The notes under the pieces were generated by a model. The model was not told where the DNA came from, ran no database searches, and saw nothing but the letters and a program-made list of their open reading frames with translations. A stretch of 64,000 bases of DNA, taken from positions 1,619,013 to 1,683,012 of the forward strand of contig NZ_CP015101.1 in the NCBI RefSeq assembly GCF_002214465.1, read 5' to 3'. The translations under genes and the position numbers were made by a program. Below, piece by piece: positions 2,627-44,718 of the stretch (positions are counted from its first letter, which is position 1; every line of letters begins with the position of its first letter). The stretch is from Thermococcus barossii. Its GTDB lineage: Archaea; Methanobacteriota_B; Thermococci; Thermococcales; Thermococcaceae.

Positions 2627-2662
2627 GACTGAATGACAGAACGAAAAAAGCTCAAAATCTCG

Positions 2663-2739
2663 GCCCCCTGCAACCCCCTTTCTGAGGTGAGTTAAATGAA
2701 AAAGCTCAAAATCTACATCCCGGGCATCAAATTCCCCTC
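2663..2739 (+). repeat. First copy of a 77-bp direct repeat (duplicated 5' end of the radical SAM gene)
   Basis: This segment is identical to 2873-2949, at an offset of 210 bp. It contains a run of C-rich sequence, the ribosome-binding site GAGGTGA, the ATG and the first 14 codons (MKKLKIYIPGIKFP) of the radical SAM gene. From this copy the frame runs on as a 69-codon ORF (2696-2905) that ends immediately before the true start at 2906. A shorter third trace of the same gene start (AAAAAGCTCAAAATCT) is at about 2645-2660. Confidence 0.9.
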
Positions 2740-2742
2740 GCA

Positions 2743-2879
2743 GGACCGGGGGGTTTCACCCCCCACGTCCTTGCCAACCTCCTCCCCCCGAACGTGGGGC
2801 TTCGCCCCACATGAATCGGGAAACTACGTTTCCCGGTCCCTTCCTCATCTTTTAAACACCGGAGGGGGCTTCGCCCCCT
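2743..2879. repeat. Array of four short perfect hairpins
   Basis: Four inverted repeats follow one another. They are 2748-2764 (six G, TTTCA loop, six C, plus an outer GGAC/GTCC pair at 2743-2746 and 2767-2770), 2794-2810 (GTGGGGC-TTC-GCCCCAC), 2817-2835 (CGGGAAAC-TAC-GTTTCCCG) and 2863-2879 (AGGGGGC-TTC-GCCCCCT). The loops are nearly all three bases. They fill the space between the two 77-bp repeats. They resemble palindromic repetitive elements rather than a terminator, because no T-run follows. Confidence 0.8.
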
Positions 2880-2905
2880 GCAACCCCCTTTCTGAGGTGA
2901 GTTAA

Positions 2906-3733
2906 ATGAAAAAGCTCAAAATCTACATCCCGGGCATCAAATTCCCCTCTATCTCACTCACGGGCAACTACTGCGCGCTGAACTGCGCCCACTGCGGAAG
3001 ACACTACCTTGAGGGAATGAAAAAGCCAACCAGGAGGGAACTCCTGGATTTCTGCGTTAACCTGGAGCGCTCGGGTGGACTGGGATGTCTCCTCAGCGGA
3101 GGGATGGACTCCAGGCTCAAGGTTCCCATTGATAAGTACCTCGACGAACTGAGGGAGATAAAGAAACGGACGAACCTAAAGCTCAACGCCCACGTCGGCT
3201 TCATAGACGAGAGCGATTTAGAGTGGCTGAGATACGTTGACGTTGTTTCCCTCGACTTCGTGAGTGATGATGATGTGATAAGGCGCGTTTACAGGGTAGA
3301 CAGAACCGTCAGGGACTACCTCAGAATCCTCGACCTGCTCACAGAAACCGGGGTGAGGGTGGCGCCTCACATAACGATAGGCCTTGACTTCGGCAGAATC
3401 GGCTGGGAGTACAGGGCGATAGACCTGCTGGTGGAATACCCAATAGACGTCCTCGTGCTGGATGTACTCATCCCGACGAAGGGAACGGAGATGGAGAACG
3501 TCCCGAAGCCTTCAGTCGAGGAGAGCTGGGAGGTTGTCAGGTACGCGAGGGAGCGCTTTGAGGGGGAGCTGAGCATAGGCTGTATGAGGCCCATGGGGAA
3601 GTGGAGGCTTGACTTCGACAGGGGGGCAGTTCTGGCAGGTGTTGACAGGCTGACGAACCCTCCAAGAAAGGTTATCGAATGGGCGAAGACGGTGAGGGAA
3701 GTCGAGATAATCTACGAGTGCTGCGTGATGTAG
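2906..3733 (+). CDS. Radical SAM protein, possible LipS1-type lipoyl synthase subunit
   Basis: 275 residues with the 4Fe-4S/SAM-binding motif CALNCAHC (C-x3-C-x2-C) near residue 23, and C-terminal cysteines (ECCVM) that may bind a second cluster. LSGGMDS fits the SAM-binding GGE-like strand. The length, the biotin-synthase-like look and the position near enolase recall LipS1 of Thermococcus kodakarensis, which works with LipS2 in lipoate synthesis. That assignment is from memory and is not proven by sequence. ATG 2906 has GAGGTGA upstream. The 5' end has been rebuilt by duplication (2633-2949), but the coding body is intact. Confidence 0.75.
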   Translation: MKKLKIYIPGIKFPSISLTGNYCALNCAHCGRHYLEGMKKPTRRELLDFCVNLERSGGLGCLLSGGMDSRLKVPIDKYLDELREIKKRTNLKLNAHVGFIDESDLEWLRYVDVVSLDFVSDDDVIRRVYRVDRTVRDYLRILDLLTETGVRVAPHITIGLDFGRIGWEYRAIDLLVEYPIDVLVLDVLIPTKGTEMENVPKPSVEESWEVVRYARERFEGELSIGCMRPMGKWRLDFDRGAVLAGVDRLTNPPRKVIEWAKTVREVEIIYECCVM

Positions 3734-3792
3734 GGCTCACCTTTCCTCGCGTCATCATGAAAATCAGAAAGGAGAACGCCGATCATCGCCCC
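3733..3792 (-). ncRNA. Candidate C/D-box guide RNA between convergent genes
   Basis: On the minus strand this 60-nt stretch has a C-like box (GCGATGA, one mismatch), a perfect D' box CTGA, a perfect C' box ATGATGA and a D-like GTGA. Spacers are about 12-14 nt and the ends pair (GGGGC with GCCC). Archaeal methylation guides have this layout. Both terminal boxes carry a mismatch, so the call is tentative. Confidence 0.3.
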
Positions 3793-3797
3793 GGCCT

Positions 3798-18354: not shown

Positions 18355-19380
18355 ATGGACTGGAAGAAGTACTCCCTCCTCGGGCTTGGACTGCTCATAA
18401 TAATCCTCCTGGTCTGGTGGGCAGGCCTAGAGGACGTCATTGAGATACTCAAGACGGCCAGGCTGGACTACTTCCTCCTGGCGGTTCTGGCCTACATAGC
18501 CGCCGTCATAATGTGGGCCCTGCGCTGGCGCGTCCTGCTCAAGAGCCTCGGCATTAACGCCCCATTCAGAACGATAGTCGCGGGTCTCTTCGTGGGCGTC
18601 TTCATAAACAACGTGACGCCGGGGGCAAGGGGGGGCGGCGAGCCCGTCAGGATGTATTACATATCCAAGCACACGAAGCAGCCCTACGGCCACGTCTTTG
18701 CAACGATAATGATGGACAGGATTATGGACGTCATCCCGGTCGTGGTGATGCTCCTCCTCGCCACGGTCTACGTCTACAACCTCGGCTCCTTCTCGCTTAC
18801 CCTGACCCTGCTCCTCTTGGACATCTTCTTCGCCATAATAACCCTGGCCACCGTCGGGATACTCCTAAGCGAGAAGAAGACAAAAGGAATACTCTACTGG
18901 TTCTACCGTCTCTTCGGAAGAATAATGCCCAAGAAGGCCAAGAAGTACGAGGAGAAGTTCGTCCACACGGTGGAGGTGAGCGTTCCGCAGTTCCAGGAGA
19001 ACTTCAAAATTCTGATGAGGCACAAGGTGGCCTTCACGCTGTCCCTGATTTACTCCTTCGCCTTCTGGTTCCTCGTCCTGCTCCGCTCCTACTTCATCTT
19101 TATCAGCATAAACAGCCCGATAAGGCTCCTCGACGTCATGGTCGTCCAGATGATAGGCATCGTCGTCGGGATGTTTATGATAATCCCGGGCGGGGCGGGG
19201 GTGATAGAGGCCATAAACTCGGCCGTTTACGTTCTCCTGGGCATAGACAAAGAGATAGCGGTGACGGCGACGCTCCTTGAGAGGCTCATCTCCTACTGGG
19301 CTCCAACCGCCATAGGGGCAGGGATAATGACTCACTTCGGCATAAAGGTAAGCGGTGAGAAAAAGAAGGAAAAGGTATAA
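18355..19380 (+). CDS. Flippase-like multi-pass membrane protein (UPF0104/LPG synthase TM family)
   Basis: 341 residues with about eight helices. Family marks are WALRWRVLLKSLGI, FINNVTPGARGGGEPVRMYY and the late GMFMIIPGGAGVIEA plus LLERLISYW segments. Related proteins are proposed to move lipids or lipid-linked sugars across the membrane; the archaeal substrate is unknown. Codon spacing shows tight coupling to the RNA methyltransferase, 2 bp upstream. A close paralogue follows after 39 bp, so the two form a tandem duplicate or heteromer. Confidence 0.88.
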   Translation: MDWKKYSLLGLGLLIIILLVWWAGLEDVIEILKTARLDYFLLAVLAYIAAVIMWALRWRVLLKSLGINAPFRTIVAGLFVGVFINNVTPGARGGGEPVRMYYISKHTKQPYGHVFATIMMDRIMDVIPVVVMLLLATVYVYNLGSFSLTLTLLLLDIFFAIITLATVGILLSEKKTKGILYWFYRLFGRIMPKKAKKYEEKFVHTVEVSVPQFQENFKILMRHKVAFTLSLIYSFAFWFLVLLRSYFIFISINSPIRLLDVMVVQMIGIVVGMFMIIPGGAGVIEAINSAVYVLLGIDKEIAVTATLLERLISYWAPTAIGAGIMTHFGIKVSGEKKKEKV

Positions 19381-28977: not shown

Positions 28978-31900
28978 ATGACCGATACTCACTCACAACT
29001 AAGAACAGTTTATCACAAAATTATAAAGGCCGAAGTCGATAAGTACAACAACATCAAGAGCCTCAAGAACCTCTTCCTTGAAAGAGAGGAAATCGAAAAT
29101 GTCGCTGGCAATCAGGATATTCTAAATGAGCTTATAAAAAGAGGTTATATTCTAGAGTTCACAGTCGATGGCCGGAAACTCTACCGCTCACTCCACATGG
29201 ACATAGCCTCAAGGGCAGCCTACGGTGTTAAGCCCTACCGGGGTGCGAGCGGAAGGGTAATGGAAAAAGACATTATGTACAAAGAAGAACCTATACTACC
29301 AAGAGATTACGTGAAGTTTCTAGACAATGCCAATGAACAATACAAAGAGTTAAGGAAGAAAGTTAAGGATATCCTGAAGGAAGAGAAGCTCGTTGAAGCC
29401 TTTTTCAAAGGACTCCACGATTCTGGCATAAGAGGTCTCACCGCCTACCAATTCGAGAGCATAATGAAAATACTAACGTCAGATAAAAGGTTCTTCCTCG
29501 TCTCAGCACCCACTGGTTTCGGCAAGACCTATGTCTACCTCCTTGTCGTCCTAATAGACGTACTAAAGCAGGTTTCGGGGAACAAGAAAGGTGTCAAGGC
29601 AGTTCTCTTTTATCCCAGAAAGTCCCTAGAAGCAGACCAGATGTCAGACATTATCAAAGTTCTCGACAACGTGAACAGATATCTCGACAAGAAGATAAGG
29701 GTTGGGATATATGATGGGAGCACACCAGAAGACACAAAAGATATCACTGAAAGACAGGAATTCCGGGGAATTGCTCTTAACATCCCTGGAAAACTCGAAA
29801 GGCTCTACCTCAGCTCAGAGGGCGGAAAAGTCATCGTTGAGTCTGATTCAGGTAGAAAGTTTGATTGGATACTATCTACAAAAAAGGATATGCGGGAGAA
29901 CCCACCCGATGTACTTATCACCAACCTCTGGAGCTATGCCCACGCCCTCACAAACCCAAAAAGGTGGGAAAAGAAGTACATAAACCCTGAAACCGCTTGG
30001 TTCGTCTTCGACGAGGTTCACGTTTATCGGGAGAATATGGCTGGCGTCCTGCGCTACCTGCTCAAGATGCTCTCGACTGACGTGAGCCAAAACGCAAAGT
30101 TCATACTTTCCTCGGCTACTATACCAAAGAGCAGAGAGTTCCTAAGGGATCTTGGAGTAAACGGTTATTTGGACTTAACTTTCAGGAAGGAAGAATACAA
30201 CAAGTACGCGAACGGCACTAAGCTCAACCTCTATCTCATGCTAGCCCTGAGACCAGACTCCTCTTGGGAAACCTTTGCTCACGAGCTAGGCCTCTTCCTA
30301 GGAGCGATAGGGACACTAAGAGGCAACTCACCTCAGTCGATAATCTTCGTTGATTCGATCAGGGAGATAGAGCGCATAAGAAACCAGCTCGAAGTCGCAT
30401 CGAGAAGGGGAAAGATAAGGAGTCACTTCTTTAACAATAATGGTACGCAGGTTGAAGAGATCGATCCATACAGCCTGGTTCCCTATGCAAAGGGCGCTTT
30501 ATCACCTTCGAACATCGATATCCTCGAGAATAAAGTCCTTGAAAACATTGACTACCACTACGCGGACAGAGCTGACAGACACAGGGTAGAAGAAAGGCTC
30601 AAGAACGGGAATGTTAGTGTCGTCTATGCGACTTCAACTCTCGAGCTCGGTGTCAACTACAATAAGGTCTCAGTTGTCGTTAACCTTGGAATCCCCCGCT
30701 CTGTGGAAAGCATCGTTCAGAGAATGGGCAGGGCGGGGAGAGATTTAGAAAGCACTCTCAATACCGCCCTCGGCATAGTGATTGTCCGGCCAACACCTAT
30801 GGAGTACTACTACGCCTACAAAGGACTTGACTATATCATAAACTTCGAAAATAGCAAAGGCATTCCCATCTCCTATAACAATCATTTTGCCATCCTCTTT
30901 TCAGCCCTGCTGCGCACCATGCTCCTTGGAGCCAAAAGCGGCAGAGGATACTATGTCAGGAACCCAAAATTCGAGGAAGTTCTTGAGCTCGCAATGAGGA
31001 TATGGGAAGAATATATCCAAAACAGAGACGAGATACTCAAGGGACTTGAGCTACCTGTTGACTCCAAAATGCAGATAGAAGAACTTATAGGAAACCTTAT
31101 GGAGACTCTCAACAAACTTCCAGTCAAAAGTGTGGAGTCAAGGTGCCTAGCTAGCAAGAGACTCTCAGAGCTCTTGGAGGGAATTTCCCGTACCCATGAA
31201 AAGATTGAAAACTTAGAAGAGCTCCTTGATGAGTTGGAGAGACTCATCTGGAGAGTAATAGAAGAAAACCCGGAGTTAGATAACAGTAAGGTCTACAAAG
31301 AAACTATCGATAAGTTCTGGAGGACCCTTGAAGAAGCAAGAAAAACTATCAATGAGTGGAAGAAACTCCAAAAGGAAATAGACGAGGAGAGGGTTGACCT
31401 CATAAGGGCGTCGGAAAAGGCGAACGAGCTGCTAACGGAACGTCTTGAACATCTCCTCATCAAGCTAAGAAACCGTGCCAACGAATTACGCAAAGCCGCA
31501 GAGAATCTAAAAGGAAGAAACTATGAGAGAGTTAAGAAACTCAAAGAGCGGAGATCTGAACTGGACGAACTAAAGGAGTATCTCAACAAGCTCAGACGAG
31601 AACGGATAGAAAAGGTTCTCGATGAACTGAGCGGAACTCAGGAGCAGCCCATAGCACCATTTGTCTGCGAGACAATAAAGTATCTACGAGATCTCGCCGC
31701 AGATTCAGACGTCGTTAATGGCCTCAATGTTGTAGAGGTTCTTCTGGGCATAAAGTTCCTTGGGAATGAGTTCCTTGATAAGAAGGTCAATACCGGAATC
31801 TGGATTCCAGAAGAGCTTAGAACAGGCCACGACGGGAGGCTTAAGTACAAGTACAAGAACCTGAAGGAATACTCGTTTTCTTCGGTGGTTTATAGGGTAC

Positions 31901-34026
31901 CCCCCTTCGAGCTAGGTACAATACCCTGGGAATCCCCAGAACAGAAGGAAATAACCGACATTATCGGCGGAAGATATGCGTGGCTACTCTATCCTGAGGA
32001 TGGTATCAGAATAATCAGCAGCAAGAGGGACAAATACCTTGAGAGTATAATGAAAACATACCGCTTAGGAGCAGGAACCTCAGAGCACTTCGGCAGCTTT
32101 TACGACGTGAGCAGGATAGACTTCATAGACTTGCTCACCTTAAGTTCCCCAGTACTCATCAAGATTACTATCCCGGACGAGAGAAAGGAGCTATACATAA
32201 AGTACGGCTCGTGGAAAGTAAGGGATGTCAAGTCCATAAACGAGCTCGTCAGGTCACTCCACAGAGAGGAGAACAACACTAAGAAACAAGGCCTCAAGAA
32301 GAGAGTGATAACGGGGCTAAACAACCTCAAGACTCTTTATTCTCAGAAACAACCAAATGATGGTGCCGGAATAAAGTTCAACTATATTCGCTACTGCGAG
32401 TTGGGGAGAGTCATTTCGACCGATCCCTTCGACTTTGACTGTCCGGTAAGAAGGCTAAAAAAGTATGAGGAGAGGTGTCCCTACGAGAGTGTAGACAATA
32501 ATGGCAAGTGCCGCTACTGGATAACCAACAAGAGAAGAACTTTCCCGAAGGTCTATCTTAAAAGGCACGTAAAGCTTCCGAAGACGCTTGAGAACCGGAT
32601 CAGCTCAATGCTAAGTGGAGTTGTCTCAATGATCCCAGTACCATACTACGAGCTCTCAGAGACTCCAGCACACTTTATCTACGACACTGTCTCCATCTAC
32701 GTACCGATCAGTCCAATTGAGTCCGTAGAGAGAAGTTTTAGGGTGTATCCAATAGGCTACGACGCTATCACCTCAATGATAGCCCTTAGCTTTAACCCCA
32801 AGTTCTTAGAGACTATAATTCGCTGGATCTACGCGAACGACCAAGAGACACTGGAAGTTATGGCCTACAAGTACTACATCTATAGGGTCGTCAAGCAAAA
32901 AGGCCTATTCGGCATCGACGTATCATCTCTTGGAGACATCAAAGACATGAAGGAGAAACTCAAAAAGGTTAAGTGGTGGGACTTCAATGAAAACAGGGAA
33001 GAAATCGGGAAGTTCCTCCAGTTCTCACTTAAAGTCCTACTCCACTCGCTCGCCCACAGGTTCATCGTTTATCTCACCAACACATACGGCTTCGACGAGA
33101 GTAAACTTACTTACTCAATAAATGAGAACGAGGGAAGGGTCTACATCGTCGAGAACTCAAAGAATGATGGTATCGGCATAGTAGAGACCTTCTCAAGCGA
33201 GATAAGGACACGTGGCGAAGCCATAGTCTTCGTTGAATTCCTACGGGACATGGTCAAGTTCTTCAAGAGACACGACGAGAGAGTTAGGAGAGAGATGCTG
33301 ACTTTCTCAATCGAAGCAGAGAAAGAGATACTCAGTAGTCCAGAGAGTCAGGAGCTCTTGAGAAAAGTCGAAGAAAAGCTCAACAAGGAACTGAAAGATA
33401 ACGAGATAGACCCCAAGAAGATGGACTACATAACATATAGGTTCCTGCTCAAGGATGTCCTCAACGAGCGAGAAGGGGAGCTCATAGGGAACGTGCTCGA
33501 TTACACCCAAACTCCCCACATATGCTACGATGGATGCAACCTCTGTCTCTACTTCGGCAGGGACTGTACTGAGGCGACCACGCAGCAGTATACCCTCTCC
33601 AAGCGCCTTCTCGTTAGGTTTGCCGAGGCTATCCTTGGAGGATGCATAACGTTTGACACCATAAGGGGATTCGAACATCTCCTGAAGGGTTTCACCGAAG
33701 GGGCGAAGACTGTCTACATGAACGTCGCCTTTGTGGATGATGAAGGAATCAGGCTCCTGAAGGAAATCCAGTCAAGCGGCGCCAAGGTTAGGATAAACAC
33801 CAGAGGTAATGATAGGAAACCACAGATAATCAAGGAGCTGAAGAAAGAGCTCGGAAGTGAGAACGTGAAGAAAATCGAAGTGCCTGACCACAAGAAGGTT
33901 TATCAGATTGAATATAAAGGGGGCATAATACAGAGCCTAATAATATCCGGCTCACCAAACCTCCTACGGAGCAGCCTCAGGGAGAACAGGGAGAACGTGA
34001 CAATAGTATTCCACGTAGGGGGATGA
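28978..34026 (+). CDS. Giant DEAD/DEAH helicase with DUF1998-like and PLD-like C-terminal regions
   Basis: 1682 residues. Superfamily 2 helicase motifs are APTGFGKT (about 177), FDEVH (about 344), SSATIP (about 378), STLELGVNY (about 553) and QRMGRAGR (about 581). Residues 690-890 are long charged coiled coil. A cysteine cluster lies at about 1140-1175. Residues 1350-1530 (LLHSLAHRF, VYIVENSKNDGIGIVE, CYDGCNLCLYFGRDC) have the pattern of a DUF1998 region with its zinc cysteines. The last 140 residues end in DHKKVYQIE and ISGSPNL, a degenerate HxK...GSxN phospholipase D motif. DruE (Druantia) and the DrmA/DrmB/DrmC set (DISARM) are the nearest known models. GGTGAT precedes the ATG. Domain names beyond the helicase are inference. 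Confidence 0.8.
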   Translation: MTDTHSQLRTVYHKIIKAEVDKYNNIKSLKNLFLEREEIENVAGNQDILNELIKRGYILEFTVDGRKLYRSLHMDIASRAAYGVKPYRGASGRVMEKDIMYKEEPILPRDYVKFLDNANEQYKELRKKVKDILKEEKLVEAFFKGLHDSGIRGLTAYQFESIMKILTSDKRFFLVSAPTGFGKTYVYLLVVLIDVLKQVSGNKKGVKAVLFYPRKSLEADQMSDIIKVLDNVNRYLDKKIRVGIYDGSTPEDTKDITERQEFRGIALNIPGKLERLYLSSEGGKVIVESDSGRKFDWILSTKKDMRENPPDVLITNLWSYAHALTNPKRWEKKYINPETAWFVFDEVHVYRENMAGVLRYLLKMLSTDVSQNAKFILSSATIPKSREFLRDLGVNGYLDLTFRKEEYNKYANGTKLNLYLMLALRPDSSWETFAHELGLFLGAIGTLRGNSPQSIIFVDSIREIERIRNQLEVASRRGKIRSHFFNNNGTQVEEIDPYSLVPYAKGALSPSNIDILENKVLENIDYHYADRADRHRVEERLKNGNVSVVYATSTLELGVNYNKVSVVVNLGIPRSVESIVQRMGRAGRDLESTLNTALGIVIVRPTPMEYYYAYKGLDYIINFENSKGIPISYNNHFAILFSALLRTMLLGAKSGRGYYVRNPKFEEVLELAMRIWEEYIQNRDEILKGLELPVDSKMQIEELIGNLMETLNKLPVKSVESRCLASKRLSELLEGISRTHEKIENLEELLDELERLIWRVIEENPELDNSKVYKETIDKFWRTLEEARKTINEWKKLQKEIDEERVDLIRASEKANELLTERLEHLLIKLRNRANELRKAAENLKGRNYERVKKLKERRSELDELKEYLNKLRRERIEKVLDELSGTQEQPIAPFVCETIKYLRDLAADSDVVNGLNVVEVLLGIKFLGNEFLDKKVNTGIWIPEELRTGHDGRLKYKYKNLKEYSFSSVVYRVPPFELGTIPWESPEQKEITDIIGGRYAWLLYPEDGIRIISSKRDKYLESIMKTYRLGAGTSEHFGSFYDVSRIDFIDLLTLSSPVLIKITIPDERKELYIKYGSWKVRDVKSINELVRSLHREENNTKKQGLKKRVITGLNNLKTLYSQKQPNDGAGIKFNYIRYCELGRVISTDPFDFDCPVRRLKKYEERCPYESVDNNGKCRYWITNKRRTFPKVYLKRHVKLPKTLENRISSMLSGVVSMIPVPYYELSETPAHFIYDTVSIYVPISPIESVERSFRVYPIGYDAITSMIALSFNPKFLETIIRWIYANDQETLEVMAYKYYIYRVVKQKGLFGIDVSSLGDIKDMKEKLKKVKWWDFNENREEIGKFLQFSLKVLLHSLAHRFIVYLTNTYGFDESKLTYSINENEGRVYIVENSKNDGIGIVETFSSEIRTRGEAIVFVEFLRDMVKFFKRHDERVRREMLTFSIEAEKEILSSPESQELLRKVEEKLNKELKDNEIDPKKMDYITYRFLLKDVLNEREGELIGNVLDYTQTPHICYDGCNLCLYFGRDCTEATTQQYTLSKRLLVRFAEAILGGCITFDTIRGFEHLLKGFTEGAKTVYMNVAFVDDEGIRLLKEIQSSGAKVRINTRGNDRKPQIIKELKKELGSENVKKIEVPDHKKVYQIEYKGGIIQSLIISGSPNLLRSSLRENRENVTIVFHVGG

Positions 34027-44106: not shown

Positions 44107-44718
44107 TCAGCCCTCTTCATCCGTAGGCTCTTCTTCCACAGCTTCAAGGACAGCGTCGAGAAGCTCTTTGGCGTCCTTCTCTTCAAGCCCGACCTTGATG
44201 GTGAGGAACTCAATGAGCTGCTCGTAGGTGTAGCCCTTCTGAATCCTCTCAAGGAGCATGACGACGATGCGGTCAAATATTCTCTCAACGAACTCCTCCT
44301 CGAGACCGAGGGCAGAAACTCCCGAGAGAAGGCCAACTGCCAGAGCGGTCAGGGCGTCGTTGAATTCCTCCTTGCCGAGAGTCTTCTTGTCGAGGTCAAC
44401 ACGGATGTTAACGACGTCGTTGGGCCTCCCAAGGCTGAACTTCATCATGTATATCCTATCGTTTAGCTCAAGAAGGGTGTGGTAAACGTAGAGCCTGTCC
44501 TCATCGCTCATGCCGTAGGTTTCAAGGCTCGTGGGAATCACAAGATGAACAAACTCGTCGGAGAACATGACCACAAGGGTGAAAGGCATCTTCGGATGCT
44601 CAGCAACGTACATGGACTCATCAACCGCCTTAACCTCCCACGGAAGGTCAACTATGTCGGCGGCATCCTCTCTGCCAGTCCTAAGCCACTCAAGAACCTG
44701 CGTTTCAATATCAGTCAC
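44107..44718 (-). CDS. YbjN-like protein of unknown function, copy A
   Basis: 203 residues from GTG 44718 (GAGGTGAT upstream). It is acidic and soluble. The order DIETQVLEWLRTG, MYVAEHPKMPFTLVVMFSDE, VYHTLLELNDRIYMMKFSLG, then VDLDKKTLGKEEFNDALTAL resembles the YbjN/type III chaperone-like fold (a leucine- and asparagine-rich helix, then a strand, then D-L...F..AL). This is inference. A C-terminal helical tail (QKGYTYEQLIEFLTIKVGLE) follows. A paralogue is directly upstream at 44865. Both lie between cdc6 and the origin and are transcribed away from it; TATA at about 44752-44762. Confidence 0.7.
   Translation of the reverse strand: MTDIETQVLEWLRTGREDAADIVDLPWEVKAVDESMYVAEHPKMPFTLVVMFSDEFVHLVIPTSLETYGMSDEDRLYVYHTLLELNDRIYMMKFSLGRPNDVVNIRVDLDKKTLGKEEFNDALTALAVGLLSGVSALGLEEEFVERIFDRIVVMLLERIQKGYTYEQLIEFLTIKVGLEEKDAKELLDAVLEAVEEEPTDEEG

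Follow-up and report, generated by a model that had tools for sequence, protein, structure and literature searches.

A palindromic array within the start of lipS1 in Thermococcus: probably one founding insertion, later spread and re-started by homologous recombination

Palindromic elements such as the Rickettsia palindromic elements (RPEs) and prokaryotic MITEs have been described previously (PMC10969869). The array at the start of the lipS1 gene of Thermococcus resembles the RPEs in that a palindromic element of approximately 150 bp is lodged in a protein-coding gene and is readable in frame; set against the 100-150 bp palindromic unit inside genes that typifies RPEs, it agrees in size, structure and place (149 nt, four hairpins, the lipS1 start). 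However, RPEs remain in the finished protein, occupy many genes and carry a conserved peptide, whereas here the functional protein begins after the array and only a leader open reading frame (ORF) reads through it, the full-type array is found at one gene site, and the leader peptide bears no sign of selection. Like MITEs, the array and its relatives are short stretches of non-coding palindromic DNA scattered through archaeal genomes, but terminal inverted repeats are absent (the left end, GCAGGACC, is not complementary to the right end, TACAACCCCC), there is no short target-site duplication (the repeats at lipS1 measure 41-77 bp), and a search of this genome for Y1 revealed no matching transposase. 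Hairpin clusters in intergenic DNA, their loops constrained to GNA on one strand, recall REP/RAYT systems, from which the array differs in its few copies; the Y1-type transposase sought in this genome, and not found, is that of the RAYT type. In fungal mitochondria, insertions that replace one end of a host gene, for example Allomyces atp6, carry a homing endonuclease. Similarly to these, the lipS1 insertion provides its gene with a new end while a fragment of the old one stays behind, but the array lacks an ORF of its own, and it is the 5' rather than the 3' end that is replaced here; like homing elements in general, it occupies one conserved target site, of which both filled and empty alleles exist, although its 149 nt encode no endonuclease. 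Among open-access papers, we found no described Thermococcus element of such a kind.

The lipS1 gene lies on the plus strand, as do all features of the locus given below, at 2906-3733 of the window, i.e., the whole 64-kb stretch of DNA that was analysed. The host genome is archaeal, a single contig of 1.92 Mb that is 99.97% complete, and in it lipS1 is preceded by an enolase gene and a gene for a 222-aa membrane protein. NCBIfam (346 bits against NF053742) and Pfam (a Radical_SAM domain) identify the 275-aa product as a LipS1-family lipoyl synthase of the radical SAM type. An earlier note on this sequence had described nested traces of the gene start at 2633, 2696 and 2906, and both the ORFs and a 16-mer present three times (AAAAAGCTCAAAATCT at 2645, 2699 and 2909) agree with it: an ORF of 20 codons (2633-2695, MTERKKLKISAPCNPLSEVS by reading) and one of 69 aa (2696-2905) precede the gene, each stopping with a TAA that abuts the next ATG. 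The note's view of the traces as copies holds for the second and third, which belong to a 100% identical direct repeat of 77 bp (2663-2739 and 2873-2949, spacing 210) comprising a hairpin tail, a C-rich block, GAGGTGA, the ATG and the first lipS1 codons. No other close direct repeat in the window approaches this pair in length, the second longest measuring 27 bp; two others noticed lie at 44680-44706 (27 bp, spacing 770) and 19273-19295 (23 bp, spacing 1065). The trace at 2633, which shares with the other two only the 16-mer and the C-rich block with the ribosome-binding site (RBS), is not the same copy but an older, differently spelled start of the resident lipS1 type (MTERKKLKI), and a deletion has joined it to the 3' arm of the last hairpin of a former array; the same fused trace is found in G004 (L025). 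The tail of that older array, i.e., the 3' arm of hairpin 4 with its C-rich tail (GCCCCCTGCAACCCCC), is still present at 2663-2678, identical to 2873-2888, and the remainder of the older array is deleted.

The left copy (2679-2739) contains the RBS GAGGTGA, the ATG at 2696 and the first 14 lipS1 codons followed by TC, and ends abruptly at the array junction 2739/2740. In the right copy (2889-2949; RBS, ATG at 2906 and the opening codons of functional lipS1), the counterpart of this insertion point is the junction 2949/2950. The array itself spans 149 nt (2740-2888, that is, the 133 bp between the repeat copies plus the tail), from the left end GCAGGACC to the right end TGCAACCCCC, and contains the four perfect hairpins which had been noted in the spacer. 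Hairpin 1 (2740-2774) has the outer arms GCAGGAC/GTCCTTGC and the core GGGGGGT-TTC-ACCCCCC at 2748-2764; it is followed by hairpin 2 (2794-2810, GTGGGGC-TTC-GCCCCAC), hairpin 3 (2817-2835, CGGGAAAC-TAC-GTTTCCCG) and hairpin 4 (2863-2879, AGGGGGC-TTC-GCCCCCT), the top-strand loops thus being TTC, TTC, TAC and TTC. Only seven perfect triloop hairpins with a stem of at least 7 occur in the 64-kb window, four of them within the array, and the stretch folds better than shuffled versions, with a z of -4.5 for RNA and of -3.3 for bottom-strand DNA. The leader ORF (2696-2905) runs from the left start through the entire array up to the real ATG and, as had been claimed, stays open across the hairpins. 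An assembly artefact hiding a single-copy start, the outcome that would have undone the earlier reading, is a negligible possibility, given that the genome is a nearly complete single contig, that the same layout is found in many independent assemblies, and that 33 genomes share the junction.

Of 61 Thermococcus genomes, 59 yielded the lipS1 gene, and 59 start regions from 58 genomes were read. The left junction KFP-TC/GCAGGACC is shared by 34 start regions in 33 of these 58 genomes, and 26 of the 33 contain a full array of approximately 149 nt (mostly exactly 149 nt); eroded remnants, consisting of the last hairpin or its tail, are present in nine of the 58 genomes and empty sites in 16, the last two classes being assigned by our reading of the start-region sequences. 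The filled sites reveal the polarity of the insertion: a truncated resident start serves as leader, behind which come the array, a fresh RBS with its ATG, and the intact gene. Among other genera of the family, 22 of 23 starts were read (G072 was left out), and the site is empty in 21 of them, with a remnant in G061, which indicates that the insertion is the derived state. When the filled and empty sites of G057 and G029 are compared, the flanks and the old start align, and one long insert is seen within the KFPS codons. Both filled and empty sites are found with several different upstream genes (enolase, enolase with the membrane protein, a transporter and HicAB-like genes for the filled ones), and in each upstream context the left copy resembles the resident start; rearrangement subsequent to insertion may have altered some of these contexts. 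The presumed starting state, an array 5' of lipS1 with no left copy, was seen in no genome. In G046, a MAG, two forms of the lipS1 start lie on different contigs (L121 and L098), one with a full array and one with an array in which hairpins 2 and 4 (H2/H4) are fused, suggesting either within-population variation or a split assembly, and in G038 (L107) the right lipS1 start has ACG in place of ATG.

Local slippage or tandem duplication at the hairpins, restricted to this one genome, would fit the perfect identity of its two copies over 77 bp; moreover, hairpins favour slippage, and H2/H4 fusion deletions recur (G005, G009 and G046). Yet the layout is common to 33 genomes in several contexts, and the left copy can be spelled unlike the right one (they are 78% identical in G059), so that repeated slippage alone, which the earlier note had offered as an explanation, fails to account for insertion in several different upstream contexts. 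We consider it highly improbable as the origin of the locus; slippage may explain the last, local step only.

The site has gone through more than one round. About 13 genomes, this one among them, have the tail of an older array 5' of their left copy (14 were listed, and G046 was discounted as a contig-edge artefact), compared with a background of 8/1180, and the start types swap roles, i.e., the left-copy type of one genome is the working (right) start of another. Segments of the locus are mosaic. Left of the array, G004 is the same as this genome, with a left flank nearest to G000 (94%), while its array is nearest to that of G027 (99%), as are the first gene segments (96-99%), and a later gene segment is nearest to G049; the array and the early gene of G004 thus appear to come from a G027-like source. 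The lipS1 tree disagrees at many points with that of cdc6, a gene located ~40 kb from lipS1 in this genome, and neither tree separates filled from empty genomes. Nevertheless, the array is correlated with the lipS1 tree (Mantel r about 0.43) as well as with the cdc6 tree (about 0.42), indicating that much of its history is vertical.

Beyond lipS1, pattern and similarity searches, on which our genome-wide counts rest, revealed relatives of hairpin 2 in 44 of the 61 genomes, with the reversed control pattern in none. Many of them continue into look-alikes of hairpins 3 and 4, and substitutions in hairpin 2 are paired (C-G to T-A), no C-A mispair having been seen. Judging from flanking genes identified by eye, the relatives often follow tRNAs directly, come behind a presumed C/D RNA, or occupy the interval between hsp20-like and AAA genes. 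On contig C1 of G000, arrays of the same family are found at 829775-829831, 1570143-1570242 and 1918781-1918820 (L010, L011 and L014), one immediately following a tRNA gene and another following a C/D-like RNA. Longer inverted repeats (AACTTTGATGAAACTTTGC...GCAAAGTTTCATCAAAGTT) border arrays of this type in other genomes, and a three-hairpin array (L123-L130) is kept between hsp20-like and AAA-ATPase-like genes in many Thermococcus genomes. Flanking direct repeats were sought at the dispersed relatives and none was convincing; hence, the duplication of the start is peculiar to lipS1. The sister-genus genome G062 contains, away from lipS1, a shortened element which has the same left end GCAGGACC, no start and no flanking repeats of at least 9 bp, and the stem of its hairpin 1 is kept through double, compensating changes. 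This H1-H2-H4 element (L264 1550-1670) is located between ribosomal S6e-like and FBPase-like genes; the regulator that comes after lipS1 in Thermococcus has its orthologue ~2 kb away. The G062 copy without a start, along with the conserved 149 nt, indicates that the array alone is the unit and that the starts belong to lipS1. Thus, the mobile palindromic element carrying its own RBS and start that the earlier note proposed stands in part: an element was inserted at one point of the gene and is followed by an RBS and start codon that are new, more than one round took place, and empty sites exist, but the starts would be lipS1 alleles that travel with the array by recombination.

On the sequence comparisons at hand, we consider it probable that there was one founding insertion of a dispersed palindromic element, which was later spread, nested, eroded and re-started by homologous recombination. 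The array would be a member of a dispersed palindromic family of Thermococcaceae, one copy of which, in an ancestor, came to separate KFP-TC from the remainder of lipS1 within the 5' end of that gene. With a complete RBS and start behind the inserted array, the gene would have stayed intact, the old start being left upstream as a leader. After DNA uptake, the direct repeats (41-77 bp) and the array itself could then have served as sites of homologous recombination that carried the array into empty lipS1 alleles, exchanged starts, produced tandem copies and removed copies, and deletions between look-alike hairpins would have eroded old arrays. Nested copies and clean losses are as expected from unequal exchange between repeats of 41-77 bp, and natural competence is known from Pyrococcus furiosus COM1, in which 40 nt of homologous flank can already suffice for recombination (PMC3462420). 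In this genome, the unit of array and start was probably either duplicated in tandem or homogenised by conversion, with most of the older array being deleted afterwards. lipS1 would still be translated via the leader stop at or near the real ATG, by coupling or re-initiation; alternatively, transcription may begin further down. We infer transfer and recombination from one genome per species.

The single exact target position in 33 genomes with several upstream contexts, the clean empty sites such as that of the G057/G029 pair, the defined left end that recurs at an unrelated place in G062, and the repeated rounds would also suit a process resembling homing or transposition, in which an enzyme acting in trans inserts the array repeatedly at an exact codon. 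An element devoid of ORFs would thereby home to one lipS1 codon across species, round after round, displacing the resident start and supplying a replacement, and the regenerated start would make the invasion of a metabolic gene harmless, so that the host gene would never be lost. We find this doubtful, since the 149-nt unit is too small to hold an enzyme, the Y1 transposase is absent from this genome, the array was not found in the viral contigs and plasmids searched, and each genome has only one full-type copy; homologous recombination, moreover, accounts for both the shared junction and the mosaicism.

Homologous recombination after a single insertion, the explanation we prefer, also has to be weighed against the marked conservation of the array. 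Its identity between species is 0.90, compared with 0.80 for the lipS1 gene and 0.48 for four-fold sites of the gene on a codon alignment, it exceeds the identity of the gene in 99% of pairs, and paired sites are more conserved than unpaired ones (0.97 vs. 0.90). In most genomes, the leader ORF reads through the array and ends at, or no more than ~30 nt from, the real ATG; in the 26 full arrays (gap-free columns) no stop occurs in the leader frame, while about 3 would be expected from 96 variants, which makes the open frame weakly unusual. Together with the constant length and the paired double changes in relatives, these observations might speak for a conserved regulatory leader, in which RNA hairpins or translation of the leader ORF control lipS1 and selection keeps the array. 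On the other hand, the array is absent in 16 genomes and eroded in nine, its relatives lie after tRNAs and other genes, and the loops vary freely. Coding constraint on the leader peptide was rejected: minor-allele cells at codon positions 1, 2 and 3 number 81, 97 and 49, and with position 3 varying least, selection on the peptide is unsupported. Rfam matched the array to no known RNA family (best score 26.9 bits, compared with a required gathering threshold of 58.6). We therefore deem such a regulatory leader improbable. The near-constant length and the 97% conservation at paired sites could nonetheless also reflect selection for function, and the leader may be translated or the array may regulate lipS1.

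Read in this manner, the locus is a fossil record of repeated allele replacement in naturally competent archaea, in which each round leaves the old start behind, and it shows how a palindromic element can settle within a metabolic gene without destroying it. It also serves as a warning that automatic annotation may misplace the lipS1 start. The array is carried by G011, which we take from its lipS1 coordinates to be T. kodakarensis KOD1 (lipS1 being TK2109), so that function and movement are testable in a genetic model. A 61-nt circular RNA was reported at the end of TK2109 (coordinates 1894519-1894579; PMC9014305), and its counterpart in the window lies just 3' of lipS1, at ~3733-3795. This stretch resembles a C/D box RNA, although an Rfam search of the region 3' of lipS1 yielded nothing at threshold. 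Elsewhere in the window, at 28978-34026, a protein of 1682 aa is encoded that combines DEAD helicase domains with a C-terminal PLD-like domain and shows weak likeness to the defence helicases DpdJ/DrmA.
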